In this document: positions 3,307-50,259 of the stretch, piece by piece
How positions within the stretch are numbered: position 1 is the stretch's first letter
How the letters are laid out: each line of letters begins with the position of its first letter
Origin: Candidatus Poribacteria bacterium
Lineage (GTDB): Bacteria > Poribacteria > WGA-4E > WGA-3G
Direction: 5' to 3'
Length of the DNA stretch: 64,000 nt
NCBI GenBank assembly: GCA_022825825.1
Contig: JAJDWA010000034.1
Span: 1-64,000 of the forward strand
The notes under the pieces: generated by a model
Told to the model about the DNA's origin: nothing
Database searches by the model: none
What the model saw: the letters and a program-made list of their open reading frames with translations, nothing else
Position numbers and translations under genes: made by a program

Positions 3307-3318
3307 GACAGATAGCCT

Positions 3319-4188: not shown

Positions 4189-4230
4189 TTGTGTAGTTAG
4201 ACGGTTGCGATATACGCGGTAAAAGTAGAC

Positions 4231-4971: not shown

Positions 4972-5032
4972 TTTTACAGTAGATTTCTATAGTTTGCGAC
5001 TTTGCCTATTTAACATGAGTTTATTCTCTATT

Positions 5033-5289: not shown

Positions 5290-5376
5290 GAAAAAATCTG
5301 AATTACCGAATTAACAAATTAATCTTCATTTAGTTCGTGCCCTTATGACATAAACTGGAAGTTTGTCCTACTATGC

Positions 5377-5407
5377 GGCAACTTGGGTTATTATAACCTA
5401 AGTTGCC
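5377..5407. repeat. Palindrome with a partial second copy at 5537-5555
   Basis: GGCAACTTGGGTTA-TTA-TAACCTAAGTTGCC; GGCAACTTGGGTTATTATA recurs at 5537-5555. Confidence 0.85.
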
Positions 5408-5551
5408 ACTTATGTAGCATAATCTGTTAGATTGTGCATATTCGTCCGCAAACTAACAGTTTGCTCTACAATATTTCACCTATAATGAACTATTCTCTAT
5501 TAAAAATGACGTTTGTGTCTCTGAAATCTTATAGGTGGCAACTTGGGTTAT

Positions 5552-5645
5552 TATAGTAAAATCTAAAATTACTTGGACACAGGGCGAGGTTAGGAAACCT
5601 CGCCTACCGCAGGAGGAAGTGTCTTTTATTTTCGATTTTACCATA
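5552..5645. mobile_element. Miniature element, TATAGTAAAATC-end family
   Basis: Imperfect TIRs TATAGTAAAATCTAAAATTACTTGGACAC/GTGTCTTTTATTTTCGATTTTACCATA around the hairpin GGCGAGGTT-AGGA-AACCTCGCC. Confidence 0.75.
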
Positions 5646-5649
5646 TAGA

Positions 5650-7626
5650 TTATACACTCCTATCCGTTGTTGGCGGTTCAGTTGTTTCGGCATCTTTGGG
5701 AGAATTGATAAGATGGCTTCTGATATCGGATTGATTATCTCTATCCCTATTTGTGATAAATGCGCGATTCGGTTCGTAAGTAGGCACTAATTCTTGGAAT
5801 TTCGCTATAATCCCGTCTGTATCAAGCGCGTCAGCCAATTCGGAGAGTTCCTCAATTTGTGAGAGTAGCTGTTCTTCCTCAATCTTTTCCATTTGCGCAA
5901 CGAAGATACGTTGATGTTTCGTTGCTGTGACACCTTCCTGGGGTGTAAGAAGCTCTTCATAGAGTTTTTCACCCGGTTCCAAGCCAGTAAAGTCTATCTT
6001 AATATCCTTATCAACTTCCAAGCCGGAAAGTCTAATCAGGTCACGGGCAAGGTCAAGTATTTTGATAGGTTCTCCCATATCCAACATCAGAATTTCACCA
6101 CCATTTCCCATAGCCCCTGCTTGAATTAAGAGTTGGACTGCTTCGGGAATCGTCATGAAATAGCGAGTTGCTTCACGATGTGTAACAGTGACGGGACCAC
6201 CTTTGGCAATTTGTCGTTTAAAATTTGGTAAAACGCTTGCACGACTACCGATGACATTGCCGAATCGGACTGCAATAAACTTTGTGCCGTTTCGATTCGC
6301 TTTACATTGGATAAGTTTTTCTGTCATTCGCTTAGAGGCACCGTAGACACTCGTTGGATTGACGGATTTGTCCGAAGACACGAGGATAAACGTTTCAACT
6401 TTATGCTGAATCGCAGCATCAATAAGATTTTGCGTGCCAAGTATGTTATTCTTTACTGCCTCATCCGGATGAATCTCCATGAATTTGACATGTTTATGCG
6501 CAGCGGCATGGAAAATAATATGCGGACGGTACCGTTTCGTAATTTGAAAAACTTTGGAATTATCTCTAATATCACCGATAATTAATTCACGATTAAGTTG
6601 CGGATCAGATTCACGCAATTCCATATCAATATGATATAAACTATTTTCACCTCGTCCGAAGAGAATTAACAATTCAGGATCAAGTTTTGCGACTTGGCGA
6701 CAGAGTTCAGAACCGATAGACCCTCCCGCTCCTGTTACCATCACCCGCTTTCCAGAAAGATTTTTTGAGATTTCTGCTAAGTCAACTGGCGTAGTGGAAC
6801 GGTTAAGCAGGTCTTCTAATTTTACTTCACGAATGTGGTTGATACTAACCCGTCCTTCAAGTATAGCGTGTATATTTGGGACGATCTTGAATTGACATTT
6901 TCGGTATTCACACTGTCGGATAATATCCCGAATTTTTCCGCCTGGTGCCGATGGCATGGCGATGATGACTTCATCAATTTCACGTTTACGGGCAATATAG
7001 GTGAGGTCACGCGTGGTGCCTAATACTTCAAGCCCAGCAATACTTTTACCAACTTTTTGCAAATTATCATCAATGAATCCGAGAGGTAGGTACCCTTTTT
7101 CAGGGTGGCTTCTTAATTCCCTTAAGACCCCGATTCCAGCAGCACCAGCACCAACGATTAGCACTTTAGTTCGTGGTGATGCGACGTCTTTTTGCCTACC
7201 TTCTTGGAAAATGCGGTAGGAAAATTTTGCAAAACCGATTAACGACGCGTTGAAAAATCCATCAATTAAAAAGAAAATCCAAGTATCAAATCGTTTCAGA
7301 AGGACTGATAAACAGATAAGTGCTAAACTTGATATCCCAATAGCAGCTATTAAGGTGCGAAATTCTTTTACACTCGCATATTGCCAAATAGGCTTATAAA
7401 TTCGAAAGCATAAAAAAGTGATGAGACGGACTGATGTTACAACAGCAGCAATACAAAACAGTAGTTGCAAAGACGAAATATCAGAAAGAATTGATATCTG
7501 CTTGAACTCTGTTAATATATCAAATTTGAGTTGTCTGCAAATAAAATAAGTTAATAAGAATGCAAAATTAACAAGTAATATGTCAATAACAACTGAAGAA
7601 CTCCATTTTATTTTGGATTTTTCCAT
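5650..7626 (-). CDS. CapD-like polysaccharide biosynthesis protein (nucleoside-diphosphate-sugar epimerase/dehydratase)
   Basis: Four N-terminal TM helices, two Rossmann motifs (VGAGAAGIG, VTGAGGSIGSELCRQ), SSDKSVNPTSVYGASKR. Confidence 0.93.
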   Translation of the reverse strand: MEKSKIKWSSSVVIDILLVNFAFLLTYFICRQLKFDILTEFKQISILSDISSLQLLFCIAAVVTSVRLITFLCFRIYKPIWQYASVKEFRTLIAAIGISSLALICLSVLLKRFDTWIFFLIDGFFNASLIGFAKFSYRIFQEGRQKDVASPRTKVLIVGAGAAGIGVLRELRSHPEKGYLPLGFIDDNLQKVGKSIAGLEVLGTTRDLTYIARKREIDEVIIAMPSAPGGKIRDIIRQCEYRKCQFKIVPNIHAILEGRVSINHIREVKLEDLLNRSTTPVDLAEISKNLSGKRVMVTGAGGSIGSELCRQVAKLDPELLILFGRGENSLYHIDMELRESDPQLNRELIIGDIRDNSKVFQITKRYRPHIIFHAAAHKHVKFMEIHPDEAVKNNILGTQNLIDAAIQHKVETFILVSSDKSVNPTSVYGASKRMTEKLIQCKANRNGTKFIAVRFGNVIGSRASVLPNFKRQIAKGGPVTVTHREATRYFMTIPEAVQLLIQAGAMGNGGEILMLDMGEPIKILDLARDLIRLSGLEVDKDIKIDFTGLEPGEKLYEELLTPQEGVTATKHQRIFVAQMEKIEEEQLLSQIEELSELADALDTDGIIAKFQELVPTYEPNRAFITNRDRDNQSDIRSHLINSPKDAETTEPPTTDRSV

Positions 7627-7653
7627 ATTACCTCCTCTAATTGGATGATTTTA

Positions 7654-7763
7654 ATTATGGTGGATCTTAGAATTAATGAGACACTTTGCACCAGCACGGT
7701 TAGGAAACCGTGCCTACCGCGGGAAGGCGAAAGTGTGCATTTATTACTAAGCTTTACTATAAT
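7654..7763. mobile_element. Miniature element, same end family
   Basis: 35-nt imperfect TIRs (about 24/35): ATTATGGTGGATCTTAGAATTAATGAGACACTTTG and reverse complement of GAAAGTGTGCATTTATTACTAAGCTTTACTATAAT; central GCACGGTT-AGGA-AACCGTGC. Confidence 0.75.
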
Positions 7764-7916
7764 CAACGTTATAAAATTATATGTATAATGCCCTTTGTTT
7801 AACCTGTGAATCAAAACCACGATTAACGATAAGGATTTCATTGATATGTTCCATTGCGTATAGTAAATCACATTTGCGTTTAGTTGTCAATAAAAATGTG
7901 GTATTTGTTTCCGCTT

Positions 7917-9551
7917 CTACAACAACGCCCTTTCTCCAAAAGGCAACTTCGGCAAAACGCCGTTGAAATAATCCTGAATTTCGTAAATCTGCAGCACAGG
8001 TGCTTTCATCTCATAACTCGGATGCCGATATGTGCCTGCGCGACTCGCCTCTGTCCGCATCCCGTTTGACGGCGGCGAGGTAACCACAAAAACACCTAAA
8101 TCAGCTTCATCGTTCTGCATTGCGGTGCGGAAGTCACGAATATGCCCAAGCGTATAGCTTCCACCTTTCACCTGCGCAACGGCCCGACCGTAAGCCTGCT
8201 TCCCTTTTACCCGACCGAGTGGAAATCTGAACGTGCCATCTATCCCACCGTCAGCCACCTTCTTAGCATTAGATTTGAAATGCAGCACGTGCGTAACGCA
8301 CCACTCCTCGAACCCTTGTGGGTTGGTGCGTGCAAGTGCTAATGCCTGCTCTACATTTTCCGGTGTGCCAGCAATCGTAACGCTGTCCCGATGTTGCGGG
8401 AACAACCGCTCAAATTGCTGCTGCACCGCACCGATGGCGAGATAGGTTAAATCTATCCCGATCCAGTGCCTGCCTTCTGCTTCCGCTGCCATGAGCGTTG
8501 TGCCGCACCCGCAGAACGGGTCAAGGATAAGGTCTCCCTCGTTTGATGAGGCGGCGATGATGCGTTTGTAGAGTTCTATCGGTTTTTGTGTGGGATAGCC
8601 GGTGCGTTCTTTTGCTTGCCCCGAAAGCGGATTTATATCTGTGATAACATCGTGGACTCTTCGTCCCTTTGACGTTGATAAATACCTTTTGAATCGCGGG
8701 ACTTTCCCCTTCGGCGGCCAGTAAATCAATCCCTTCGCGTCCAATGCGTCTAATCTTTCGTGAACAGAGAGGGACTCATAGTTTTCAGGGGGTTGGACTC
8801 CTTCAGGCCACGCTTCTTTTTCGGGGACTGCCCAGTGTCTGCCCACAGCAGTTGGATCCACACTGCGCCAAGGTTTCCCTGATTCACCTTGACTTACGCT
8901 AGCTCCTGTTAGGGTGACAACTTGGTAGCGACCTTTTTCGTCCTCATAGCGATAAAACTTTTCTAAATATTCGGGATCGTGTTCTGTATAAACTGGGTTC
9001 CATACTGCCTTATTGCTCTTGCTATAGAACAGAATTACGTCGTGAACTCTACCGAACTGATTGCCGTCACCATGGGCATAGGTGCGTTGCCACACAATTT
9101 CATTCCTAAAGTTATTTGTCCCAAACACCGCATCTAAAACAATTTTGAGATAGTGACTTGCAGAGGGATCGCAGTGGAGGTATAGACTACCAGTCCCCTT
9201 GAGTATTCTGTGCATCTCCACAATCCGAATGCCCATCATCACAAGGTATGCCATCATCGGTGTTTCGTTGAGGAATTTTCGTAAACCCTGTATCGTATCA
9301 CCTACCTGCCCGCCGACATCTACCAGTAGCTCGTTATATGCATCTTCTGCTGCTTCGCCCCATGTCCACGTATCAGTGAACGCTCTCACAAGGGTATCGG
9401 GTTCGCGTCCGTGTTCGTCGCGGAACGGTACAAAATAGTCGCGTTTAGAGTTGAAAGGCGGGTCCGTAGCAATTAGGTCAATGCATGCGTCAGGGAAGTT
9501 TCGCATCTCGTTGAGGTTATCGCCGCGGATAAGGGTTCGGTTTTCGTGCAT
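7917..9551 (-). CDS. Beta-class DNA methyltransferase with C-terminal Mrr-like restriction endonuclease domain
   Basis: DLIATDPPFNSKRDY (motif IV) precedes DPFCGCGTTLMAAEAEGRHWIGIDL (motif I); C-terminus GGIDGTFRF...GRAVAQVKGG resembles the D-(D/Q)xK core of the Mrr_cat fold. Confidence 0.88.
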   Translation of the reverse strand: MHENRTLIRGDNLNEMRNFPDACIDLIATDPPFNSKRDYFVPFRDEHGREPDTLVRAFTDTWTWGEAAEDAYNELLVDVGGQVGDTIQGLRKFLNETPMMAYLVMMGIRIVEMHRILKGTGSLYLHCDPSASHYLKIVLDAVFGTNNFRNEIVWQRTYAHGDGNQFGRVHDVILFYSKSNKAVWNPVYTEHDPEYLEKFYRYEDEKGRYQVVTLTGASVSQGESGKPWRSVDPTAVGRHWAVPEKEAWPEGVQPPENYESLSVHERLDALDAKGLIYWPPKGKVPRFKRYLSTSKGRRVHDVITDINPLSGQAKERTGYPTQKPIELYKRIIAASSNEGDLILDPFCGCGTTLMAAEAEGRHWIGIDLTYLAIGAVQQQFERLFPQHRDSVTIAGTPENVEQALALARTNPQGFEEWCVTHVLHFKSNAKKVADGGIDGTFRFPLGRVKGKQAYGRAVAQVKGGSYTLGHIRDFRTAMQNDEADLGVFVVTSPPSNGMRTEASRAGTYRHPSYEMKAPVLQIYEIQDYFNGVLPKLPFGERALL

Positions 9552-9589
9552 GGGGTTATCTATCTTTTTATTTTTTCATCAACGTTGAT

Positions 9590-9708
9590 AGGACTTACGC
9601 AATTTTCAAGGTTTTCCAATAATTATGGCTCAAACGCTGTAATTTTTAGCTGAATTCTGAGTTTTCAGCGCGTTTACAAAACGCGCCTACCGTTTGTGCG
9701 TAAGTCCT
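9590..9708. mobile_element. Miniature element with 12-bp TIRs AGGACTTACGCA
   Basis: AGGACTTACGCA at 9590-9601 and TGCGTAAGTCCT at 9697-9708; internal hairpin GCGCGTTT-ACA-AAACGCGC. Confidence 0.75.
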
Positions 9709-9715
9709 GGTTGAA

Positions 9716-10939
9716 TTAGATTTCGGCGTAAACTTGCTCCAGACGTTCAACGAGTACAGGCCAATCATAACTTGCTTCAACCCGCTTCCTACCAGCATCA
9801 GCCATGTTTTGCCGAATATCAGGGTTTTCAATGAGATGAATGACACGTTCAGCAAAAATTTCAGGAGTATCGGCAATAAGAAGTTCTTTACCAATTTCCA
9901 CTTCCATCCCCATAGCACCAATTGAAGTTGTAACAATGGGAGTCCGCATTGCCATTGCCTCTAAGTTCTTTGTTTGAATACCCGACCCTGCACGTAACGG
10001 GGCAACAAAAATGGATGTCTTGTTGAAATAGGGGCGAACATCTGGAACATAACCTGTAACAACGACCCCTTTCTGTGTAGCAAGTTTACGCACCTGTTCA
10101 GTCGGATGATTACCGACAATAAAAAAAGTAGTATCTGGATGCTGTTTCTGTATCAATGGAAATATACTATCACAGAAGTAGATGACTGCATCAGAGTTCG
10201 GAAAATAGTTCATAGTTCCAGTGAAAAGCAAGTTTTTTGCCGGATCCCCTGAGACAGTAGGTTTCAATTGGTCTATCTCAACACTGTCTTTCCCGTTAAC
10301 TTGATGTGGGTGGAAATATTTGAGATCAACGCCCATAGGAACGACCGATAAATTGAGCGTGTTATCCTGATTCAGCAAGTAATCACGATCAAAGTTTGCA
10401 ACAACAGTGCCACGGTCAAACGCTTTCATAATATCAACTTCATAACGACGGACCCGTTTTTCCTCCAATTTTACCAAAAAACGTTTTGGGGTGCAATCCA
10501 ATTTTGCGCGGCGGCTCAAGTTTAAAGCCAACGAATCACATAAATCTAAAACTTTTGCTGTCCCTTTAGTCCGTGTTACATATTGTCCCATCCGAAAGAG
10601 TTGTGCATGGATGAGTTCAAAGTTCTCCTCTGCAAGAAGTTGGTCAATTTTACGTTGCATTTGTGGTGAATACCAATAGTGTACTTGCAAAGGTAACCGT
10701 GAAAGGCAATGGACTGCTGTATTAAGGCGTGCAAGCGCGGGGCGAAATCTAACCCATTCCACGCGCTCACAGAAAGTGTTTAGGTGTTCAATCCCTTCAA
10801 TGTCAGCGTCTGACTCGGCAAAGAAGACGAGGGTAACATCATGCCGTTTTGAAAGTTGTTTGATAAAATGGTATGATCGAATGCGGTCACCTCGTTGTGG
10901 TGGGTAAGGGGACCGCAAACTCAAAAATAGGATTCGCAT
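9716..10939 (-). CDS. Glycosyltransferase group 1 (TIGR03087-like, exopolysaccharide associated)
   Basis: MRILFLSLRSPYPPQRGDRIRSYHFIKQLSKRHDVTLVFF; FVAPLRAGSGIQTKNLEAMAMRTPIVTTSIGAMGM. Confidence 0.9.
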   Translation of the reverse strand: MRILFLSLRSPYPPQRGDRIRSYHFIKQLSKRHDVTLVFFAESDADIEGIEHLNTFCERVEWVRFRPALARLNTAVHCLSRLPLQVHYWYSPQMQRKIDQLLAEENFELIHAQLFRMGQYVTRTKGTAKVLDLCDSLALNLSRRAKLDCTPKRFLVKLEEKRVRRYEVDIMKAFDRGTVVANFDRDYLLNQDNTLNLSVVPMGVDLKYFHPHQVNGKDSVEIDQLKPTVSGDPAKNLLFTGTMNYFPNSDAVIYFCDSIFPLIQKQHPDTTFFIVGNHPTEQVRKLATQKGVVVTGYVPDVRPYFNKTSIFVAPLRAGSGIQTKNLEAMAMRTPIVTTSIGAMGMEVEIGKELLIADTPEIFAERVIHLIENPDIRQNMADAGRKRVEASYDWPVLVERLEQVYAEI

Positions 10940-10978
10940 TTCGTATAACGACTCATATCAAGCGTCTATTTGCCAATT

Positions 10979-11173
10979 TTATGTGGAAGGCAATTCTGCT
11001 TCATCAATTAACATGACAGGAATTCCATCGCGAATTGGATAGCGACGTCGACATTCACCTTGACATACCAATTTTTGATCTGCTTCAATGTGTTCAATTT
11101 TGCCTTTACATGCAGGACACGCCAGAATATCAAGTAAGGTTTGCGATAGCGTATAGGGTTTTTCAGCATTCAA
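10979..11173 (-). CDS. Trm112 family zinc-binding protein
   Basis: 64 aa; LLDILACPACKGKIEH...CRRRYPIRDGIPVMLIDEA. Confidence 0.9.
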   Translation of the reverse strand: MNAEKPYTLSQTLLDILACPACKGKIEHIEADQKLVCQGECRRRYPIRDGIPVMLIDEAELPST

Positions 11174-11236
11174 AACAGTTCTCCTAAATGTTAACGGATT
11201 GAGTAGAGTTCATGTAAATTAATATCTTTAGCGACC

Positions 11237-13930
11237 TTACTGACCATGGCATTTCTTATATTTTTTTCCACTGCCGCATGGGCAGGGGGCGTTTCGTCCG
11301 ACTTTTTGTGTTTTTCCCATTGCCTGCTGTGAGGCAAATTCTGCTGAGGTTTGAGCATCATAATTGGCAGCTCTACGCGGCGGTGTTCGGCGTGAACTTC
11401 CTGATCTTCTGTTAGGAACACGGCGAGGTGCTTCAGTATTAACACGCGATTTAAAGATAAATTCACTTACCTCTTTCTCAACGTTTTGATACATGGATTC
11501 AAATACACCGAGTGCCTCACTTTTGAAAACAACAATTGGGTCTTTTTGAGCATAACCTGAACCAAACCTGATACCCTCTTCAATAAAATCAATGTTATAA
11601 AGATGATCTTTCCAGTGGCTGTCAATTCTATCTAATACAAGGAGGCGTTCAAGGAGACGCATAGTCTCCGAGCCCATTTCAGTTTCACGTTGTTGATATG
11701 CAGTTTTGAGTTCTGCGATGATTTGTTCGTGAAGATCGTCAGCGGATATTTCGGTGAGTGGAGTCTGCCAAGTGGGGTTAATGGGGAAAGTGGTAGTTAG
11801 CCATTTTGTGAACTGTTCAAGCTCCTCGGTTTCACGTGGGCCTTTTTCAGGGATGACCATATCAATTTCATCATCGACGACGTTCTCAATCATTTCCCAC
11901 ACAGTTTCTTTAGGGTCTTCATCTGATAGGATAGTATCTCTCAGTGTATAAATGGTGTCGCGTTGCGCTTCCATAACGTCATCGAATTTGAGTATATTTT
12001 TGCGAATATCAAAGTTTATCTGTTCAACACGTTTCTGCGCTTTTTCGATAGATTTTGTGACCCACGGATGTTCAAGTGGAATATCTTCGTCCAGGCCGGT
12101 TCGACTCATAAGCCCTTGCAGACGTTCGGAACCAAACTTTTTCATGAGGTCATCTTCCAGTGAGAGGTAGAATCTCGATGAACCTGGGTCTCCTTGTCTA
12201 CCGGAACGTCCGCGCAATTGGTTATCAATCCGTCTGGAATCGTGCCTTTCTGTGCCAACGATATGTAATCCACCAGCCTTCAGGATATGCTCCCGATTCT
12301 TTTCGCATATTTCTTCTGCTTCAGCGAGTGCCGTTTCCCATTCCTCAGATTCCGGAGGTAACGAATTTAAGTCAACTTTTTTCTTTCGGAGTGCGTCCTT
12401 TGCCAAGCCTTCAGGATTACCGCCAAGCAAGATATCAACACCTCTACCCGCCATGTTGGTGGCAATTGTTACGGAACCTGGCATTCCCGCTTGGGCGATA
12501 ATGTCTGCCTCACGAGCATGCTCTTTAGCGTTCAATACTTGGTGCTTGATATTCCGATGTCTGGCTCTCAGTAGCTTACTTAATTTCTCAGAGTTCTCAA
12601 TTGAAATTGTCCCTACAAGAACAGGACGCCCTTTTTCGTGCTGCTCTGCAATATCGTTTAGGACAGCGTTATATTTTGCTTCCTCAGTTGTGTAGATTTG
12701 GTCGGGATTATCAATCCGAATCATCGGTTCATTTGTAGGCACAACAACGACATCCAGACCATAAATATGTGCAAACTCATTTGCCTCTGTAGCAGCTGTA
12801 CCGGTCATTCCAGCGAGTTTCTCATACATTCGGAAATAGTTTTGGTATGTAATCTTAGCAAAAGTTTCATTTTCCTGAGCGATTCTTACACGTTCTTTTG
12901 CTTCAATGGCTTGGTGGAGACCCTCACTGAGTCTACGCCCTATCTGTTTTCTGCCAGTGAATTCGTCAATAAGTAACACTTCTCCATTTTCTACTAAATA
13001 GTGTATGTCGCGTTTGTAGAGGTGATGCGCGGTTAAAGATTGATTTACATGATGAACCAGCATGATGTTGTCATGATCATACAAATTTTCTAAACCGAGA
13101 CGCTGTTGTACTTCATCAACTCCCTCGTCAGTAAGCGTAACACTTCCGCGGGATTTGCCTTTCTGGTCGATTACATAGTGCTCCTCGTTACGAAGCTGGG
13201 TGACAACGCTGTTAATTTTTCTATACAGTTCAGCAGGTTTGTTGGATGGATCAGAAATAATGAGGGGTGTGCGTGCTTCATCAATAAGGATACTATCAAC
13301 TTCATCAAGGATGGCATACCGGTGGCCACGTTGGACTTTCGTATCAATGGTTAGTGCTCGATTATCATTTAGGTAATCAAACCCAAATTCACTGTGGACT
13401 CCGTAGGTAATATCAGCCTTATATGCGAGTTTTTTCTGTTCGTGTGGCATCAAGCTCAGTGTCAATCCGACAGACAGTCCAAGAAAATTGTATATTTTTC
13501 CCATCCATTCAGCATCTCTGCGTGCCAGATAATCATTGACTGTTGCGAGGTGGACACCGTTTCCGGTGAGTGCGTTCAGATAGACAGCGAGGGTAGAGGT
13601 TAACGTTTTACCTTCACCTGTTCTCATTTCAGCGATTGCACCTTGATGAAGTGCCACGCCACCGATAATTTGAACATCGTAGTGCCGCTGTTTCAATGTC
13701 CGTACCGCTGTTTCTCGCACAACGGCAAAAGCCTCCGGTAATAGTTCGTCAAGGGATGCGCCAGCATCTAATTGCCTTCGGAACCACGGGGTTTTTGCTT
13801 GAAGTTGGTTATCAGTCAGTCTTTTAATTTCGGGTTCACGCTGGTTGACAGCTTCAACGATGTCGCGAAATCGTTTTACATCACGGTCTTCCTTTGTACC
13901 GAAAACTTTGTTTATTGCTTTTTCAAACAT
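11237..13930 (-). CDS. secA: Preprotein translocase subunit SecA
   Basis: [83 protein letters not shown]-terminal SEC-C motif [17 protein letters not shown]. Confidence 0.98.
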
Positions 13931-39757: not shown

Positions 39758-40198
39758 TTAATAACGTTGCATGTCCTGATCAACCTCTTTTGCCCACCTG
39801 TCGATCCCACCAGCAACGCTGAGTACCGATTTGAATCCGAGTTGTCGTAGAAGATGTGCAGCATCAAGACTTCGCATTCCGTGATGACAGTAAACAACAA
39901 TTTCATCCACTGGTAAAAGTTCACGACACCGTCTTGGCAGTTCACCAAGCGGGATAGACACTGCCCCGTCTATATGAACAAGTTGATATTCCCATGCTTC
40001 CCTGACATCAAGCAAAACAAAATCTCTACCAGCATCCATCATCTGTTTAAGTTCATTTGGTAGGATAGCGTAATCTTCGGGATCATAAGGTAGGATCGCC
40101 TCTTCTACACTTGGTGCAACCCGTGGTAGAAAGTTGTCTCGTGAGGTTCTGGCGGAATCCCAGATTTTGTATAAGAAGTTTCTGATACGTTTAAACAT
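39758..40198 (-). CDS. Rhodanese-like domain protein
   Basis: DFVLLDVREAWEYQLVHIDGAVSIPLGEL; VYCHHGMRSLDAAHLLRQLGFKSVLSVAGGIDRWA. Confidence 0.92.
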   Translation of the reverse strand: MFKRIRNFLYKIWDSARTSRDNFLPRVAPSVEEAILPYDPEDYAILPNELKQMMDAGRDFVLLDVREAWEYQLVHIDGAVSIPLGELPRRCRELLPVDEIVVYCHHGMRSLDAAHLLRQLGFKSVLSVAGGIDRWAKEVDQDMQRY

Positions 40199-40232: not shown

Positions 40233-42266
40233 CTAAAATGTAATCGTCATGCCTAACGTGGGAATAATAGGTAACTGAGGTTCTTCCTCAATAGCGCATC
40301 CGGTAATAACAGATGTTTCTTCATCTCGTACTTCACTGAATGCGTACTGGTCAACATTCGTATGATTATATAGGTTTAAAATCTGAAAATACCATGTGAG
40401 ATTCCAACGTTTGTAAGGGTTTCGTTTTGTAATTCGAAAATCGAGACTATGGTACGCTGGCAATCGCTCCGAATGTGTTTCACCAAACTGTCGGTCACAA
40501 CCGATACCCCCATTTGGCAACTGAACCTCTTCGTGAGTCAAAGGGGTTCGTGGGTCACCAGTGTGGAAACGCCAACTGAGATAGAGGTGCCATGTTGAAG
40601 AAATCTGATGGCTACTGCTCAGAAAGAGAGAATGCCGCCGGTCATATTGCCGAAAGATTGTAATGTTACCCGATGTTTCTTTTGCGATGCCGTAAGCGTA
40701 ACCGAGTCCCCATGTTAACCGAGGTGATATAGCTTGTGTCGCAAAAAGATCAAATCCCCTTGCATTTGCAGATTCTGGAGAAGTAAAAATCTGTTGCTGT
40801 CGTCCAAATTCTCTTATCCTACCTACCAAATTATCAAATTTTTTGTAGTACCCTTCAAGACGAATCAGAAAATTGTTGCCGCGGCTATATTCACATCCCA
40901 GAATATAGTGCGTTGCCTGTTCGGCACGTCCGACAGTCTTTATATTGTCTTCAACAGGTACTGACATCAAATCGACAGGTTGATGATAGAGCCCCCATGC
41001 GCCTCGGAATACTAAGTTTTTCTTGGGACTCACCGCGAACGCCACACGTGGACCAATTTCATAGTTTTGAACATCTGGGTTTCGATAGTTCTGGACCACA
41101 TAGCGGCCACCGACGTTGATCGCGAGTTTTGGATGAATTTGCCAATCATCTTGTAGAAATATTTTGATGTCATTTCCGCTATTATCAATATTCGCTTGAA
41201 TTGGCTTATATTTGTTTATTCCTGCTTGTCGTTCTTGGACATCGTATTCATATTGGGCAGCCGACCAACGCCACTCAACACCAGTACGAAACGTATGTTT
41301 TTTTAATGCGTTTACTGTGAGTTCTGTTTTTGCTCCCAAAAATCGGAAGTCACGATTGTCAAAATCCGATTTTCCAGTTGCTCTCTCTTGGCTTGATGAA
41401 CCGCCAAAAATAAAAACATCTGTCCAATATGAAGTGCCAAAAGTATGTCGCCATTTTAGCCAAGCGGTCGAATTATCGTATAGGGAATCCAACTTGTTAT
41501 CTATATCATCTACACGTATCAGATTCTTATCCCAACCGTACAACCCGTTAAGGGTAATTGTGTCTGCATCTGTTACTTGATACATGAGTTTACCATAGAC
41601 ATCGGCATATTGTGGTTTGTATTCTTCGTCAAGATCTATGAGCGCGAGGATTAGGTCAACGTACCCGCGGCGCGCTGACAGCATCCATCCGCTCTTTTCA
41701 GTCAAAGGCCCCTCCACCATAACGGTTGCGTTGATGAGGTCTATCCCGAAATTTGCTGAGATCTTTTCTGTATTCGGTGTTTTGGTTGTAATGTCAAACA
41801 CACCTGACATTTTTTGTCCGTATTCTGCTGGAAATCCGCCCATCAACAGATCAGCACGTTGGATTAAACCGAGTCCGACCAACGAAACAGCCCCGCCAAA
41901 ATCTTGTAAATGATATGGATTGTAAAGTTCCATACCGTCTAATCTCACTGAGACACCATCCTTCTCTCCGCCTCGGACGCTGAAGCGCGCGCTATAATCG
42001 CTTGCAATAACGCCAGGTAAAATATGTCCTGAACGCATTATATCGTTGTCAATTAATGGGAACCTTTCTATCTCCTGCTTTGAGAGTGAGAGTTGTGGGG
42101 TCGCTCCATCATAAATCATAAATCTCCCAGGTGTTACAACAATTTTTTCAAGTTCTATCGGTTTTTGATTTTCTTGTGCATGAACCGTAGGAAAATGAGC
42201 GAAAGAAAAAATGAGAATGTGGAGAAGGAGAAATCCAATGGTGCACATTTTGATGTAGGACATCAT
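40233..42266 (-). CDS. TonB-dependent outer-membrane receptor
   Basis: Signal peptide; plug-domain pattern IVVTPGRF...ARFSVRGGEKDGVSVRLDGMELYNPYHLQDFGGAVSLVGLGLIQRADLLMGGFPAEYGQKMSGVFDITTK; C-terminal barrel ending MTITF. Confidence 0.92.
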   Translation of the reverse strand: MMSYIKMCTIGFLLLHILIFSFAHFPTVHAQENQKPIELEKIVVTPGRFMIYDGATPQLSLSKQEIERFPLIDNDIMRSGHILPGVIASDYSARFSVRGGEKDGVSVRLDGMELYNPYHLQDFGGAVSLVGLGLIQRADLLMGGFPAEYGQKMSGVFDITTKTPNTEKISANFGIDLINATVMVEGPLTEKSGWMLSARRGYVDLILALIDLDEEYKPQYADVYGKLMYQVTDADTITLNGLYGWDKNLIRVDDIDNKLDSLYDNSTAWLKWRHTFGTSYWTDVFIFGGSSSQERATGKSDFDNRDFRFLGAKTELTVNALKKHTFRTGVEWRWSAAQYEYDVQERQAGINKYKPIQANIDNSGNDIKIFLQDDWQIHPKLAINVGGRYVVQNYRNPDVQNYEIGPRVAFAVSPKKNLVFRGAWGLYHQPVDLMSVPVEDNIKTVGRAEQATHYILGCEYSRGNNFLIRLEGYYKKFDNLVGRIREFGRQQQIFTSPESANARGFDLFATQAISPRLTWGLGYAYGIAKETSGNITIFRQYDRRHSLFLSSSHQISSTWHLYLSWRFHTGDPRTPLTHEEVQLPNGGIGCDRQFGETHSERLPAYHSLDFRITKRNPYKRWNLTWYFQILNLYNHTNVDQYAFSEVRDEETSVITGCAIEEEPQLPIIPTLGMTITF

Positions 42267-42419
42267 GCGGCCTCACTGTTTTGATTTGTAGGGTTATACG
42301 GAATTATAACATTTTTCGTCAAAAGTGTCAAAATATTTTTATAGTGAATGATCAGAGGCATTCAATTGTCGAAGTGAGTAAGTAGGGAGTTGTCAAGACT
42401 AATCTCCAAACAACAAAAT

Positions 42420-44087
42420 TCAATACAACACATGCACCCGATTCTTACCGCGTAGCGTCTCATCAGGCATCACAATCGGCATCTCGACAATAGCGATGAG
42501 CGAACCATCGGCACTAATAGCAAGTGTATCATAAGGTAGTTGTCCCTCCGTGCGGTAGGTATAGAGATATTTTGCCAATCCGCTACCTTTAGCCGTCAGA
42601 TCAAACACCGAAACCCCGTGAAGGCTCTCGTTTAGGTTTTGGCTCCGTTTAGAAACAGCTAACGCAACATAACGTCCTTTGCCATCAATTCGTAAACCTT
42701 GCGGCATATTTTCAAGTTTCCACTGCCAAACCTTTTCGCCCCCCCATGAATAAGCAAAAACCGTCATTCCGTTAGGGTGCATAGCAGATGGACGTTGCGC
42801 TCCCTTTTGAAGATGATAAGGAATATACGTATCACCTGTAACAAAAAGTGCAGCAGCGTTCGTTGCCCCAATCGTTCCAGTTGTAGCAATAATCGGCACA
42901 CCACTCATCTCCATAGGTGTTGCCAAATTCTGTTCCCATATCGGTTCAGGAGTGTTCACATCAAAAATAAAAGCACGGCCATCATCCGTAGTAACGTTGA
43001 CGAACTTCCCATCAGGCGACATACTGATACCACGCCAAAAGGTAACCCCCTTAAAATAGGGGGCAAGCGGTTCAAAATCTGTGTGCCACTTTTCTGTGCC
43101 TGAATCTGTCTCAAGCACAGATAACGTTCCGTTGCCCTTACCACTTTCATCCGTTACAAGTGCAAGCACTTTACCATCAGCACTTACGTCAAACCACCGG
43201 AATATCTTCTGCATAGCATCTTCACGGGGCCATTTCCATTTTACATCCCCAGTTTTAGCATCAAACCGATAGAGCATAGATCGCTTTTGCGGTATATCTT
43301 TCTGTGTCCAAGAATGCACACCTGCAACTAATAGATCGCCGTTCGGTAGCGTCCGAATGCACGACTGACCGGGATAACTTACCCACGCATACACACTCTC
43401 TGGATTACTCGGTGTTGAAGTTTGGATATCATCTGCCGTTCGGTATTTCCAACGAAGTTTCGGCTGTGCCCCTGTCAATTCATAGCAGTAGACAAATCCG
43501 TCTGCTGCTTGCTCTCCGATGTAGAGCAGTGTATTATCAGGACTAAAAGCGATGTGCCTAACATAACCTTCAGAAATACGGGTTTTCCATACAGTTTTAC
43601 CTGTTATGGGGTGGACAATAGCGAGATGGCCTCTATCGGTTGCAACTGCAAGTTTGTCTGCATGAGTTCCATGTCCAAATGCTATTGCTGTCGGTTTGGC
43701 AGGTTGACGCAGATTTTCCATCAACGACAGGAGTCCATCTAATTCAATTGTTCGGATGCGGTAAGGAACAGGTTTCAGAGGCGAAGTTGCTGGTGTTATG
43801 CTTTTCCCCAAACGAAACCGATAACTTTTATTCGGATGCCACGCGAATTGTAATAAAACGCGTTTTTCACCGAGTTTTAGAGAAGGTACAGTTTCAAAAC
43901 CAGCGCCTTGTTGTCCAACTGAAACTTCAACTTTCGAACCAAGTTCGCCTTTCGTTTCAGTCTCAAGCACTACGCCCGTACGAACCCAAACGACATTTGA
44001 TTCAGCCATCACTGCACTAATCGGCAGCGCGATAAATAATACCAGACAGAAAAATCGGATATGTTTCATTGATATATCTCCTCGCAA
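42420..44087 (-). CDS. PQQ/WD40-like beta-propeller protein, secreted
   Basis: Signal peptide; repeated blades (ITGKTVWKTRISEGYVRHIAFSPDNTLLYIGE, DAKTGDVKWKWPRED, ETDSGTEKWHTDF). Confidence 0.82.
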   Translation of the reverse strand: MRGDISMKHIRFFCLVLFIALPISAVMAESNVVWVRTGVVLETETKGELGSKVEVSVGQQGAGFETVPSLKLGEKRVLLQFAWHPNKSYRFRLGKSITPATSPLKPVPYRIRTIELDGLLSLMENLRQPAKPTAIAFGHGTHADKLAVATDRGHLAIVHPITGKTVWKTRISEGYVRHIAFSPDNTLLYIGEQAADGFVYCYELTGAQPKLRWKYRTADDIQTSTPSNPESVYAWVSYPGQSCIRTLPNGDLLVAGVHSWTQKDIPQKRSMLYRFDAKTGDVKWKWPREDAMQKIFRWFDVSADGKVLALVTDESGKGNGTLSVLETDSGTEKWHTDFEPLAPYFKGVTFWRGISMSPDGKFVNVTTDDGRAFIFDVNTPEPIWEQNLATPMEMSGVPIIATTGTIGATNAAALFVTGDTYIPYHLQKGAQRPSAMHPNGMTVFAYSWGGEKVWQWKLENMPQGLRIDGKGRYVALAVSKRSQNLNESLHGVSVFDLTAKGSGLAKYLYTYRTEGQLPYDTLAISADGSLIAIVEMPIVMPDETLRGKNRVHVLY

Positions 44088-44129
44088 TAAATGTAAATGT
44101 GTGTTATTATTCCGAAATATCTAACATAA

Positions 44130-46049
44130 CTAATCCGCTACTTTCCACAACCCTTGACCCAATTTCGCTCCAAGAAGTACACCGATAAACGTATACGCGA
44201 ACCCTTCAACAAAAATTCGGAGCAAAATATACCAATCTGCGAAAAAGAGGCGGTAAAATAGAATAGAGAGTTGAAAATCGACATAAACAGCAATTGCATC
44301 GCAAATACCGAGAACAAGTGCCCAGGCAAGCAAACCGCGTCTCCGAACAAGAAGTAAACCTGTTTCCAACAGGAGAACACTTGTGCCTGTATAGATAATC
44401 GTCATCGGTGTGAAAAGGCCGAACGTGACCGCGCCGAGAAGTAAACGCACTGCAGAAACAAGTAGGATAACACCGCCTTTACGATATGTTTGTGACACAT
44501 CGGAAACTTGTGGAGCATTATCACCAGGTGCACCGGAAATGTAAATTAGCAATGCAGTAAGCAGCGCATAATAAAGTGTCTCATTAACCAAACCTGTCAG
44601 AAGTACAGAAAAGGGACCGAAGATCGCACGGATGAGATTCAAAAACAGGGTCGACGGTACAACAATTGCCACAAATATTGTTGTACCGAATAGTGCGATA
44701 ACAATGAGTTGCTTGGTAGAGAAACGAACAAAGAATTGTCTATGAAACTGTAGCAACACAATAAGTCCAATGCAGCTGGCAATAACTGCTAATCCACTCA
44801 CAAATAGCGCATGTCGATTCGGAACTACGATGTGAAGCGGGCTTTTGACACTGAGGACTGTTGTACCACTTCCCCATATCTTTACCGCAATCTCACGTTC
44901 GTATTCACCACCTGCGGCAGATTGTGAATGAAAATAGATGGGCAAAGCGATAGAGGTCAGTTCTCCTCCCGGCAAACTGGCAAAACTGATACTCCGATCT
45001 GTGCCAGCGTTGACTGCATCTGGCGGTGCAAGAAAAGCCACTGCATCACCACTTCTCACATCACGATTGATTGATGAAACAACCACGTGGATAGTTTCTT
45101 CACCATGATTCTGTATACGGACTGTCTGATAGGTTACAGGAGTATATATGTCTGTCTGCTCTGTTTCCAACCAGCTGAATAAAGGCCGCGGATGATAAAT
45201 CGTATTCTCTCGCTGTCTTGAATCTGTTATGCCATTTGCATCCGTAGGCATATCAACAGTTTTAATGGAAAGATGTTCAACAATCTCAAAAAAATTTGCT
45301 ATTCGCACCTGCACCGTTGCGGTCTGTTCCCACTGTTCTCCATCTACTGACGAAAAGCGAACAACACCTGAAATTTCTTGAGTCTCCGATTGCCCCGGTG
45401 TTTCTATTGAAATTTCGGGTGTTCTCAAAACTAATTCACGATGCCAAGTTTCCGATGCAACGTTAAACACACCTGTTGTTGAAAGGTAAGTCTTCATATC
45501 CCTTGCTTCTGTCTTCCAATCGCTGGGTAAGTGCGTAACATTCAAACTTAAAGGTACGCATAACTCCAAATCAAAAGTAGCGGGAGTCTTGCCGTTTGTG
45601 ACCATGACTGTGGCACTCATCTCGCTCCCTTGCAAGATGAGTGCTTTTTGATTACTACTCAACGGATTTTGTGCGTCCGACTGCATTGCAGCACCGTACG
45701 GGATAGCAATCTCCAAGCTGCCGCTTGTATACGTACGCGGTGCAGCCACCGTTTGCACGCTAACATGCTCTGTAGACGAGGTTGCCTCAAATCTATACGT
45801 TTCCCCTTCCTGCCACTCGAAATAAAGCGACTCTATCTGTCGTGGTGGCACAGGGAAATTAAGTTGTGAGACCATTGTTCCATCGGGATTATAAGCAGTA
45901 ACTTGCTTAATCGGCGCTTCGTTCGCAAACTGCACTTTAGCACCAAGCGGAAAGAAGGTAATCTGCCATGATAATGTATCCTCTTCTGCTTCAGGTGTAC
46001 AACCGATGAAAAGTATGGGTAAAAAAAACAAAAATCCCCATTTTCCCAT
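44130..46049 (-). CDS. Lipoprotein-type N-terminus with large extracytoplasmic region and C-terminal multi-pass membrane domain
   Basis: Lipobox-like FLPILFIGC at N-terminus; about 400-residue soluble region; roughly six hydrophobic helices C-terminal (FSTKQLIVIALFGTTIFVAIVV...LIRAIFGPFSVLLTGLVNETLYYALL). Confidence 0.75.
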   Translation of the reverse strand: MGKWGFLFFLPILFIGCTPEAEEDTLSWQITFFPLGAKVQFANEAPIKQVTAYNPDGTMVSQLNFPVPPRQIESLYFEWQEGETYRFEATSSTEHVSVQTVAAPRTYTSGSLEIAIPYGAAMQSDAQNPLSSNQKALILQGSEMSATVMVTNGKTPATFDLELCVPLSLNVTHLPSDWKTEARDMKTYLSTTGVFNVASETWHRELVLRTPEISIETPGQSETQEISGVVRFSSVDGEQWEQTATVQVRIANFFEIVEHLSIKTVDMPTDANGITDSRQRENTIYHPRPLFSWLETEQTDIYTPVTYQTVRIQNHGEETIHVVVSSINRDVRSGDAVAFLAPPDAVNAGTDRSISFASLPGGELTSIALPIYFHSQSAAGGEYEREIAVKIWGSGTTVLSVKSPLHIVVPNRHALFVSGLAVIASCIGLIVLLQFHRQFFVRFSTKQLIVIALFGTTIFVAIVVPSTLFLNLIRAIFGPFSVLLTGLVNETLYYALLTALLIYISGAPGDNAPQVSDVSQTYRKGGVILLVSAVRLLLGAVTFGLFTPMTIIYTGTSVLLLETGLLLVRRRGLLAWALVLGICDAIAVYVDFQLSILFYRLFFADWYILLRIFVEGFAYTFIGVLLGAKLGQGLWKVAD

Positions 46050-46170
46050 AACAAAAACCTTCTCATGTCGGATTTGATAGATCTTTGTAGGCGCGCTTGT
46101 ATGAAGATTAATTTATTAATTCGGTCCTTTTCTGTCAGCACAAGGCAGGTATACCCGCTGCTGGCGAGGC

Positions 46171-46302
46171 GGGGAATGCCTAAAGCAGCATGCGCCAAAT
46201 CAAGAAATCAACGGTATGAACGCCTGTTGGCGTTCCCCGGGTATGAATGCCTGTTGGCATTCCCCGTCCGGCATGTTCCATGATTCATACCGTTGATTTC
46301 TT
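46171..46302. repeat. Composite palindromic element
   Basis: 19-bp perfect inverted repeat AAGAAATCAACGGTATGAA (46202-46220)/TTCATACCGTTGATTTCTT (46284-46302) enclosing hairpins GAACGCC-TGTT-GGCGTTC and GAATGCC-TGTT-GGCATTC. Confidence 0.85.
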
Positions 46303-46389
46303 CCTACCCTCGCCAAAAGACCGATTTATTTTCTTAAACTTCATATAAGCGCGCCCTCTTTCTGTAGGAGCAACCCGTACTCCTCATCC

Positions 46390-47688
46390 TTAGAAGTACT
46401 GAGCAACACTTATCAAGTCAAGGATGTTAACCAGACCATCCCCGTTAACATCGCCAATTATTCCGGGTCCACTTTGACCGAAATTCTGACTGACAATCAC
46501 AAGATCTGTTATGTCAACAAATCCATCGTCGTTAACATCTTCATTACGCGACACGATTCGTGCCAGTGCTACCTTATCGGTGCCGTGCCCAAGTTGGTAT
46601 GTTTTTATGAGTGTTTCGTCTGGCCCCATGACAAGCATAGTAGAGAATCCATCGCCTGCCCAATTAGGTTTGGTGATATACAGATTTCCATCCGGCCCGA
46701 AAACCATTCCAGAACCACCACCGAACTCGGCGAGTCTGTCACTTTTGTCTCGAATCCATTTTTGCGTTGGCAAATCGTAGATCAATAGACCACGGTTTGC
46801 CCAGCCTCCTTGAATAAACAACTGTTTCTGTGAATTGATTGCAAAAGACCCAGGTGTCATCTTAAGGTCAACCGTTTTGATGATTTTATCGGTAGTCGCA
46901 TCAATTAGAACCAATTTTCCAGAAATCAGTCCGTAATCACCCGTTGTCTTTACAATAACAGTGGAGTCACCATCGTTGAGAATTCCCCCCGCATTGATAG
47001 GCATAGGTATAGAACTCAGCACCGAGTCTGTCTGCGTATCTATAACAGTGACACTGCTTTGGTGGTAGATAGATTTACCTGCTGCCGCATCCCACTCCCA
47101 AGCGGGATTGGTCACATAAGCTTTTCCGTTGAGAACCGTGATGCCGGTCGTTTTGTTGAGAGAGGCATCCGTAATAATTTTGGTCACACTGCGACTGCCA
47201 ATGTCAACAACATGCACCTGATGGACATTATCACAGGTAACATACATTTTATTCGAGTTGATAAGTGCAAGACTTTGTGGATAAGCGCCGGATTGAATCG
47301 GAATAACATCAACAATTTCCTGCCGTTCCAAATTGATCATTAAGATACTGTCGGAAAACATACCTGAAAGCCAATCGAAACGCGATACGTATGCGATATG
47401 TCCATGAATCAGAATATCACTTGGAACATCGCCAATAGTAATGACTTCTGCGTCAACGGCCCGTTTCAGATTTGGTTCATCAAGATCGATAATTGAAAGG
47501 GAAGAGATAACATTTAAGTCGGCATTATCCAACGCATTCACAACAACAGCAAGATTTTGGACATCTGTTTGTGCAAAAGTGAAACTAATAAGGAAAGTGA
47601 AAAGCATCGCACTGATAAGCAGGAGCGAATGCAGTTTGTAATTTGAGTGGAACGAAAAAAGTCGCCTAAAGAAAAAAACTTTGTTCAT
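46390..47688 (-). CDS. Secreted YncE-like beta-propeller protein with C-terminal dockerin-like repeats
   Basis: Repeated propeller blades; C-terminal DVNDDGFVDITDLVIVSQNF and DVNGDGLVNILDLISVAQYF. ORF track extends to 47751, but ATG at 47688 is preceded by ACGGAGG and gives a signal peptide MNKVFFFRRLFSFH... Confidence 0.87.
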   Translation of the reverse strand: MNKVFFFRRLFSFHSNYKLHSLLLISAMLFTFLISFTFAQTDVQNLAVVVNALDNADLNVISSLSIIDLDEPNLKRAVDAEVITIGDVPSDILIHGHIAYVSRFDWLSGMFSDSILMINLERQEIVDVIPIQSGAYPQSLALINSNKMYVTCDNVHQVHVVDIGSRSVTKIITDASLNKTTGITVLNGKAYVTNPAWEWDAAAGKSIYHQSSVTVIDTQTDSVLSSIPMPINAGGILNDGDSTVIVKTTGDYGLISGKLVLIDATTDKIIKTVDLKMTPGSFAINSQKQLFIQGGWANRGLLIYDLPTQKWIRDKSDRLAEFGGGSGMVFGPDGNLYITKPNWAGDGFSTMLVMGPDETLIKTYQLGHGTDKVALARIVSRNEDVNDDGFVDITDLVIVSQNFGQSGPGIIGDVNGDGLVNILDLISVAQYF

Positions 47689-47699
47689 TAATACCTCCG

Positions 47700-47740
47700 T
47701 AATGAAACAAGAAACCCCTACTTTCATTGGAAAGAAGGGG
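47700..47740 (-). terminator. Intrinsic terminator-like hairpin between riboswitch and coding region
   Basis: On the minus strand CCCCTTCTTTC-CAAT-GAAAGTAGGGG followed by TTTCTTGTTT; one T-T mismatch in an 11-bp stem. Confidence 0.75.
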
Positions 47741-47879
47741 AAAGGCGACACTTCGTAAAATCTGATCCTGTGGTTCTGTGTAAGATTGAATACTTATTAG
47801 GACTATGTGTATTCTATATGTGACAGGATACTGCTGCGCTCTGTTCCACCGCTTTCCCGCGAAAGCAGATGCGTGAAAC

Positions 47880-48097
47880 ACGACTCAGGCAGGTCTCCTG
47901 ACTTCCGATTTCTTTGTATAGTTTGCAGGGCAAAACCTGCTTCTACCAAAGTCCGCTGCACCTTCCCATCAACCTTTGACAGTGGTCTCCCAGCGGAAAC
48001 TCCTCAACTGAGGAATTAATCATTCACAGTGGCGGGGCCGTGGCGGATTCTCACCGCGCTTCCCTATTCTCCGTACTTCGGCACCTGAACCGTTCAT
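47880..48097 (-). ncRNA. Cobalamin (B12) riboswitch
   Basis: Minus strand reads GGTGCC...GAATAGGGAAGCGCGGTGAGAATCCGCCACGGCCCCGCCACTGTGA...GACCACTG...GATGGGAAGGTGC...GGAAGTCAGGAGACCTGCCTGAGTCG, matching conserved core elements including the B12 box. Confidence 0.96.
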
Positions 48098-48222
48098 TTA
48101 TTCAATTATATTCATATTATATCATATTGCTCTATTTTTTGCAAATTTATTTTCATTCATTTAACTCTTGACATCAGGACAAATAACTGATATTATGTAA
48201 CAAAAACGGAATAAGGCTAAGC

Positions 48223-50259
48223 ATGAAAAAAAATACCACCATATCTTTTCAATTTTTCGTCCGACTTTTTCTCACAATTACACTCCTTTTTCAAAGCGCA
48301 ATTTTACATCCTGTTTTCGCAGTGGACTTTATCAAATTAGAACATGAATTTTCAGGTAAAGGTTCGTCTCAAGGGGCATTTAGCAAAGATATTCACCTTG
48401 CATTTAAACAGAATATCTATGTCAGTGATACAGAAAACCGTCTAATTCAGAAACTTTCACCGACAGGAGAATTTCTCGGACAAATCCCTGCAAACCCAGA
48501 GTTTCCGGAAAATATCTTACGGAAACCGGGCCACCTCGCGGTAGATGAAATTGGCAATATTTATGTTGCCGATGTAACTGCACACCATATCGCTGAAACT
48601 GCCGACCCGAAAATATACATTTTTGCACCATGCGTCCATAAATTCAGCCCTACAGGTGAGTTATTAGACACCTATTTTGTGGACCCTGTAGACGAACGTC
48701 CCGGTGTAGTTTTACCTGCAAAACTTATCATAGATGAGAATGGTAAATCGGCATTCGGAATCCAACCCACCGGACACGATCGCGCACTTCGCATCGCTGT
48801 CAACGCGCAAAACCAACTCTATGTCTTGGACGCAAAACGCGGACGTATTCATAAGTTTACTGCCGATGGCGAAAAACTTCTTACTTTCGGTAGGTACGGG
48901 GCAGGCGATGGAGAATTTGATAGGGATGCTGCTGATATTGCAGTTGATGCTCGCGGAAACATTTTTGTTGCAGATACAGGTAATCATCGCGTTGTTAAAT
49001 TTGATGGTAATGGAAATTTTATCCGTAGTTTCGGCAGAAAAGGTCGAGACAACGGTGAGTTTGTTCGACCGATGGCACTTGTCACACTGCCGACAGGTGA
49101 GATTTTAGTCAAGGATGCAAGTCGATTCCGTAGGAAAGTCGGCGGACTGCCGGAAGTTATCGCCCTTTCACCGACATTAACGCAGCTCACTGAAAGCACA
49201 CCCGGTCAAGCGGACCTTGCGAATACGATTAAGAATGCAACGCGTCCACAATACGGTCCGTTTGCACAAAACCCTATAACAGCAGTTGACACAGCGTCTC
49301 TGAACCGTCGTTTGCGGTTGCTTGAAGAAGCGGAATATCGCCGATATTATGACGATGACTATGGTGATGATGAAAATGACAAAGAACTTGCTGAAGAGCT
49401 TAAAAGGACAGACATACGTCTGACACTGTTTCATAACGTCATTTCACGCATCCAGAAATTTGACAACAACGGCAGATATGTTGGGCGGATTATTTATGAA
49501 ACAGATCAGTTGAGTGAGGAGAAGCACGACTTGACTTTTCTTGATTTTGACCCGTCAGGCTATCTCTACCTGCGAGACACCAGTGATTTTACCATTGCTC
49601 AGTATTCTGTAACAGGGTTTACCGTGAAACCTGCCCACATGAACGGCTTTTATAGTGCACGCGTCGCCAATCTTAGCAACAACTATTTGGAAGATTATGA
49701 GGATATTGACGTCTCAACCGACGTTGAAGATAAACTCAATCAGTTGGAACTCAAAAATCTATTCGGATGGACATATAGCCTCTCTGAACGGTGGCATTTA
49801 ACGTTCCTTGATGAATTGACATATAGCGAACAGGATGAACGATATACTACCCCTGCCAAAATAGAGGATAGTTTTGATTTTGAGACACAGGCGTTAGAGA
49901 ATGCACTCGCTGTAAATCTAAAGTATATCACCAACCCGAATCCGTATCGGTATAAAGAGTTGAATTTATCCGTTGGACGTATTGATGGCACCTCTGATCT
50001 GACGCAGGACGCGCTTTTTCCTGATCTAAATAAACAACACAGGATTGATACGGGTGATGCAAACGCAACGGTTATTGAGCTTAATTGGGATATTTGGTCA
50101 CGTACAAATCTATGGCTGCGCTACGCTGATCTCAATCCCGCAGAGACAAGTCGCAATTTTATCCGTAGGTTCTACGATGTTTCGGGTGATCTGTATGAAG
50201 TTTTCGGAAGTCGTAATCAGGCACGGCAGTTCCTCGGTGAGTTCACAATAAAGTTTTAA
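48223..50259 (+). CDS. NHL-repeat propeller protein with C-terminal beta-barrel-like region
   Basis: Signal peptide; NHL blades (RYGAGDGEFDRDAADIAVDARGNIFVADTGNHRVVKFDGNGNFIRSFGRKGRDNGEF); C-terminal alternating strands ending FLGEFTIKF. Confidence 0.82.
   Translation: MKKNTTISFQFFVRLFLTITLLFQSAILHPVFAVDFIKLEHEFSGKGSSQGAFSKDIHLAFKQNIYVSDTENRLIQKLSPTGEFLGQIPANPEFPENILRKPGHLAVDEIGNIYVADVTAHHIAETADPKIYIFAPCVHKFSPTGELLDTYFVDPVDERPGVVLPAKLIIDENGKSAFGIQPTGHDRALRIAVNAQNQLYVLDAKRGRIHKFTADGEKLLTFGRYGAGDGEFDRDAADIAVDARGNIFVADTGNHRVVKFDGNGNFIRSFGRKGRDNGEFVRPMALVTLPTGEILVKDASRFRRKVGGLPEVIALSPTLTQLTESTPGQADLANTIKNATRPQYGPFAQNPITAVDTASLNRRLRLLEEAEYRRYYDDDYGDDENDKELAEELKRTDIRLTLFHNVISRIQKFDNNGRYVGRIIYETDQLSEEKHDLTFLDFDPSGYLYLRDTSDFTIAQYSVTGFTVKPAHMNGFYSARVANLSNNYLEDYEDIDVSTDVEDKLNQLELKNLFGWTYSLSERWHLTFLDELTYSEQDERYTTPAKIEDSFDFETQALENALAVNLKYITNPNPYRYKELNLSVGRIDGTSDLTQDALFPDLNKQHRIDTGDANATVIELNWDIWSRTNLWLRYADLNPAETSRNFIRRFYDVSGDLYEVFGSRNQARQFLGEFTIKF

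Follow-up and report, generated by a model that had tools for sequence, protein, structure and literature searches.

The 64,000-nucleotide stretch of DNA analysed here (the window; positions 1 to 64,000 of contig JAJDWA010000034.1) belongs to a 5.1 Mb genome of Candidatus Poribacteria that is 84% complete and whose close relatives bear that name. On its minus strand a cobalamin riboswitch is followed by genes for (i) a secreted beta-propeller protein resembling the B12-capture protein BtuG, (ii) a lipoprotein whose membrane domain looks like the S-component of an energy-coupling factor (ECF) transporter, and (iii) a second propeller, and these elements constitute a conserved operon under B12-riboswitch control (Table 1). 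The locus was compared with 60 relatives, mostly metagenome-assembled genomes (MAGs), in which apparent gene absences may reflect assembly gaps and taxonomic labels may be wrong. Order-level profile counts cover 50 genomes, including four families (f1 to f4), and sister-class counts cover 10; FecCD and ECF-T searches were profile-based, and genomes and loci are designated by G- and L-numbers, respectively.

The canonical riboswitch that a first-pass annotation of this DNA had placed at 47880–48097 of the minus strand was recovered by a covariance-model search as a full-length RF00174 match (93.3 bits against a gathering score of 31.5), the earlier limits being about right. A genome-wide search returned it as the sole copy in the window genome, and RF00174 is present in 57 of the 60 relatives. 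The terminator-like hairpin and the strong ribosome-binding site noted in the same annotation were also found, the former as CCCCT-t-CTTTC-caat-GAAAG-t-AGGGG at 47740–47715 followed by TTTCTTGTTT, and the latter as ACGGAGGT at 47700–47693, ahead of the ATG start codon of the propeller gene at 47688. The leaders examined from the same family preserve the stem, often with changes in one arm matched by the other, which argues that the hairpin is not simply a product of chance, and in them a near-identical T-rich tail is again followed by ACGGAGGT. A generic terminator scan did not list the hairpin; an interruption in the tail and an internal mismatch in the stem are the probable reasons. This leader would fit a riboswitch that acts by transcription attenuation.

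Counting the window genome, 49 genomes of the order carry the riboswitch, and in 48 of them the first propeller gene comes immediately after it. Propeller identities range from 87% down to 37%, and the riboswitch-propeller order is conserved among relatives. The exception, G049, has its single riboswitch on another contig, before IscB-like and Cas-like genes, and no riboswitch precedes its propeller within the 0.65 kb of upstream sequence. On that contig (L098, 1263–5313), a possible contamination, the riboswitch is followed by IscB-like (RRXRR/HNH), Cas4/Cas1-like and Cas2-like genes. When the AlphaFold2 model of the propeller (predicted local distance difference test, pLDDT, 88) was searched against 350,542 PDB chains, ranks 1–16 were all BtuG1, BtuG2 or BtuG3 (best E 2.7e-18; target template modelling (TM) score up to 0.83), followed by an archaeal YVTN propeller (E 6.7e-16) and, at a wide distance, by E. 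coli YncE (E 8.4e-11). In agreement with this, a propeller profile built without the sister-class lipoproteins matches BtuG1 (1e-13 to 3e-13) and BtuG2/3 (about 1e-8); a repetitive archaeal propeller outscores BtuG1–3 against the propeller profile. A generic YncE propeller that sits beside a riboswitch by chance was ruled out by the 48/49 adjacency together with the fold ranking. As the first-pass annotation had supposed, the modelled fold and the profiles indicate a BtuG-like protein; it was not filed as BtuG since it has no N-terminal lipobox cysteine. It carries a Sec-type signal, and no btuB gene adjoins it.

BtuG1–3 are B12-capture proteins of Bacteroides (PMC6143338, PMC10404256), and no BtuG homologues were reported outside Bacteroidetes under the BlastP settings of PMC6143338 (313 human gut strains). 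The window propeller shares with them the seven-bladed fold, a riboswitch-controlled operon and profile similarity, while it differs in its low identity (17–22% in fold alignments), its missing lipobox, its dockerin tail and the lack of an adjacent BtuB gene. In the sister class the likeness extends to lipoprotein homologues next to a BtuB-like gene: at L089, L090, L091 and L096 the riboswitch is followed first by a TonB receptor gene and next by that of a propeller-family lipoprotein with a lipobox, the receptors having TonB-B12 as their best NCBIfam model but scoring below the family cut-off. The sister-class propeller homologues carry a lipobox and no dockerin. Judged by gene order this is the BtuB-BtuG arrangement, which suggests that the window propeller most likely descends from a BtuG-like lipoprotein. 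At L089, CobT and CobS genes follow the propeller lipoprotein (by reading; CobS also by profile), and elsewhere among class-level relatives RF00174 riboswitches precede B12-related genes that read as CobQ-, CbiB-, CobN- and NrdD-like. At the sister-lineage locus L083 (210–5672) a riboswitch precedes the gene of a class III-like (anaerobic) ribonucleotide reductase that seems to contain an intein; an activase gene comes next, and then that of a propeller lipoprotein.

The order riboswitch, propeller, lipoprotein, second propeller is conserved in loci of f1 to f4, and in f3 the operon genes lie a few bp apart or overlap at their ends. G038 has the operon in two halves, which lie on different contigs and each have a riboswitch of their own in front, such that the lipoprotein is riboswitch-linked on its own. 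These observations support the assignment of the lipoprotein and the second propeller to the same riboswitch-controlled unit as the first propeller. The 340-bp gap (46050–46389), on account of which the first-pass annotation had left control as a single operon in doubt, is large because an element with 41-nt terminal inverted repeats, 80% complementary (46090–46130/46315–46355), has been inserted; several relatives have a far shorter gap here, e.g. 4–61 bp. The gap was thus ruled out as an operon boundary, and the conserved order in f1 to f4 and the double riboswitch of G038 answer that doubt as far as sequence allows. The insert (46090–46355) is MITE-like (miniature inverted-repeat transposable element), with inner palindromic repeats (GGTATGAACGCCTGTTGGCGTTCCCCG).

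Table 1. Features of the riboswitch-controlled operon in the window.
Feature	Position	Strand	Basis
Promoter-like site TTTGCA-18-TATAAT, TG before -10	48116..48145	minus	Consensus match only; just upstream of riboswitch
Cobalamin riboswitch aptamer	47871..48103	minus	RF00174, 93.3 bits, E 7.1e-22, full length 1-189
Terminator-like hairpin and T-rich tail, probable expression platform	47705..47740	minus	Sequence; stem kept in same-family leaders examined
Ribosome-binding site ACGGAGGT	47693..47700	minus	Sequence; identical in same-family leaders examined
Secreted BtuG-like seven-bladed propeller, 432 aa	46390..47688	minus	Fold, profiles, riboswitch adjacency
Dockerin type I tail, residues 383-431	46396..46542	minus	PF00404, E 8.7e-7
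Lipoprotein, large extracytoplasmic region and polytopic C-terminal domain, 639 aa	44130..46049	minus	Synteny, lipobox
ECF S-component-like membrane domain, residues 405-639	44133..44837	minus	Fold match 5edl; homologue context
Second propeller, periplasm-type, PQQ_2/BamB-like, probable ECF-system accessory (ATG start probably at 44069)	42420..44087	minus	Profile PQQ_2/WD40-like; conserved lipoprotein partner

The genes that follow the first propeller were all identified as previously described, including a TonB-dependent receptor gene (40233–42266); the proposal that the locus forms one unit for corrinoid uptake is supported for the lipoprotein and second propeller and not for the receptor. 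The latter is not BtuB-like by profile and was not detected at the operon in any other order-level locus compared, while orthologues in most of the 21 genomes searched lie away from the operon locus. A rhodanese gene (39758–40198 in the window) follows the receptor orthologue in 5 of the 7 contexts examined, as it does in the window, and the receptor was ruled out as an operon member on the grounds that it lies elsewhere in relatives, usually with this gene. The pairing of receptor and rhodanese gene is conserved in several Poribacteria and adjoins the B12 operon only in the window. The window receptor may be the outer-membrane gate for B12. The product of a divergent gene upstream of the riboswitch (48223–50259) is an NHL-repeat propeller that weakly resembles ScyF; by conservation the gene was judged to lie outside the operon.

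The lipoprotein gene is present in 47 of the 50 order genomes and in none of the 10 sister-class genomes, and its product carries the lipobox FIGC, with Cys17 invariant in 21 homologues. Its C-terminal membrane domain (mean column identity 67%) has, in the predicted structure (pLDDT 81), a sole confident PDB fold match, the YkoE-like S-component 5edl (probability 1.00), the matches listed after it all having a probability of at most 0.38. Outside Poribacteria, the MAGs with homologues include some labelled Phascolarctobacterium, Deltaproteobacteria and Planctomycetota, and at L200, L201, L202 and L204 the next gene encodes an ECF-type double-ATPase (by reading; profile-confirmed in L200). In L200 the genes after this ATPase encode ECF-T and a protein homologous to the second propeller (E 5e-25). 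Such gene context is stronger evidence than fold or profile for the S-component identity. If the membrane domain is an ECF S-component, as it appears to be, it would account for passage through the inner membrane, a step missed by the first-pass annotation. The L200 cluster (477–11563) comprises two TonB receptors, a corrinoid/haem-type ATPase, the S-component homologue, an ECF ATPase fusion, ECF-T and the second-propeller homologue. At L201 (3–8836, Deltaproteobacteria MAG), CobN and chelatase-subunit genes lie directly before the lipoprotein S-component homologue and the ECF ATPase.

Members of the order appear to be B12 auxotrophs that lack B12 synthesis: profile searches found CbiC and CobS in none of the 50 genomes, and MetH is present in the window genome and most f1 genomes. 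FecCD was credible in 19 and Peripla_BP_2 in 18 of the 50 order genomes, and neither was credibly found in 31, including the window genome, in which Peripla_BP_2 was not detected and FecCD matched only at E 1.8e-5 or worse (one match being marginally over the cut-off once frame neighbours were added). ECF-T is single-copy in 48 of the 50, and in the window genome it follows a 506-aa double ATPase (G000:C66, 6926–9357).

Taken with the riboswitch and the BtuG-like fold, these data make corrinoid (B12) uptake by BtuG-like capture and ECF-driven import the probable function of the operon, and what the first-pass annotation had inferred as to riboswitch control, a BtuG-like propeller and uptake stands, apart from the membership of the TonB receptor. 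Several observations weigh against this interpretation. The statistics of the 5edl match are weak (E 0.057, TM-score 0.47/0.54), the membrane domain has no PDB match by sequence, and PF09819 is touched by only one of the 21 lipoprotein members (E 0.0023), the window protein not being among them. In Poribacteria the ECF module lies apart from the operon; the window genome, which is incomplete, yielded no BtuB; and the FecCD gene of 19 order genomes may provide a second route there. No cobalamin riboswitch lies within the flanks examined of the non-Poribacteria homologues, and the substrate may therefore differ there. Finally, G047 (C52, 55000–62000; L227) has riboswitch and propeller, but no lipoprotein was detected. 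No second propeller was detected after the propeller at that locus either, and the genome has FecCD and Peripla_BP_2 genes.

The weak sequence and fold statistics, the unlinked ECF genes and the FecCD genes would all suit a scheme in which corrinoids are imported by another permease and the membrane domain is an unrelated anchor or chaperone. We consider this unlikely, as ECF ATPase genes are neighbours of the homologues in several unrelated phyla and as many order genomes retain the lipoprotein without credible FecCD or Peripla_BP_2, among them G044, which is a single contig, 98% complete, and gave no match to either family. The sister class displays the reverse pattern, with the lipoprotein in 0/10 and Peripla_BP_2 in 10/10 genomes. 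Even less probable is uptake of a cobalt species or of a tetrapyrrole other than a corrinoid, haem for instance, which the riboswitch would merely couple to B12 status. Haem ECF transporters do exist (PMC7299338), Pfam labels YkoE relatives cobalt permeases, the L201 homologue has CobN and chelatase genes as neighbours, and the distant homologues have no riboswitch nearby; however, cobalt for B12 synthesis makes little sense in an order in which CbiC was not found, for which reason cobalt uptake for de novo synthesis was judged unlikely, and the propeller resembles BtuG, its counterparts in sister lineages following BtuB-like genes.

Corrinoid uptake through an S-component, the favoured interpretation, has only partial counterparts among known systems. 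The YkoE-type S-component (5edl, PF09819), the best and only confident fold match, has 15% identity to the membrane domain, lacks a lipoprotein region and has another presumed substrate, a thiamin precursor. To our knowledge, no propeller or lipoprotein region accompanies BtuM. This predicted B12 transporter is likewise an S-component-like B12 membrane protein, likened here by description and not by sequence (PMC6072759). ECF-CbrT, the vitamin B12 ECF transporter of Lactobacillus delbrueckii (PMC5997447), is similarly a B12 S-component that works with a shared ECF module, and its host is a B12 auxotroph lacking BtuCDF. It differs in its Gram-positive origin, and the parts of the source consulted describe neither a fused lipoprotein region nor a propeller partner for it. 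The pattern of gene presence and absence reported above parallels the reasoning used there to identify CbrT as a B12 S-component. E. coli BtuB-BtuCDF performs the same overall task, and families of the BtuC and BtuF type were not credibly found in the window genome.

At low cytoplasmic B12, the riboswitch would let transcription through the terminator hairpin and the three proteins would be made. The secreted BtuG-like propeller would bind corrinoids beyond the inner membrane, probably on the surface of the cell, and the C-terminal S-component domain of the lipoprotein would carry them inwards across the inner membrane. The one ECF module of the genome (ATPase fusion and T-component), encoded at another site, would power transport, and the second, periplasmic propeller would presumably assist the transporter.

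The protein locations in this scheme are predicted from sequence signals, and those of the first propeller allow two views. The earlier description of a secreted propeller with dockerin-like repeats at 46390–47688 proved correct, Dockerin_1 (PF00404) matching residues 383–431 with 29.5 bits against a gathering score of 22.9. The dockerin occurs in f1 and f4 members and is not found in f2 or f3, and in G038 and G049 it is accompanied by an extra C-terminal tail that, read by eye, resembles a surface-sorting domain. That the dockerin stands in for a lipid anchor is plausible but not general, because the f2 and f3 propellers have neither lipobox nor dockerin. We therefore propose only tentatively a two-membrane route in which a dockerin (in some lineages with a sorting tail), rather than lipid, keeps the capture protein at the surface, and in which this protein hands the corrinoid to the lipoprotein-fused S-component and its propeller partner, an ECF form that would be shared with a few distant phyla. 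The literature searched contained no paper joining Poribacteria with dockerin or with a B12 riboswitch, nor one joining an ECF transporter with S-component, propeller and lipoprotein. The Sec-type signal without lipobox, and the lack of dockerin or sorting tail in f2 and f3, could also be explained if the propeller were a periplasmic carrier that replaces BtuF, which is compatible with the uptake function; this reading we regard as less likely than not, given that the BtuG proteins of Bacteroides are surface lids and that the G038 and G049 homologues carry a dockerin and a putative surface-sorting tail.

The operon appears to be the main corrinoid uptake route of B12-auxotrophic Candidatus Poribacteria, in place of the textbook BtuCDF pump, and an uncultured, sponge-associated candidate phylum thereby gains a testable route of B12 uptake. 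It would explain how apparent B12 auxotrophs with MetH might do without BtuCDF. BtuG-like propellers under riboswitch control are now seen outside Bacteroidetes, their reported limit, and the lipoproteins described here would constitute a family of ECF S-components that are fused to a lipoprotein region and partnered by a propeller in two-membrane bacteria. B12 exchange is thought to be important in sponge symbiosis, and the putative capture protein would offer a concrete handle on it.

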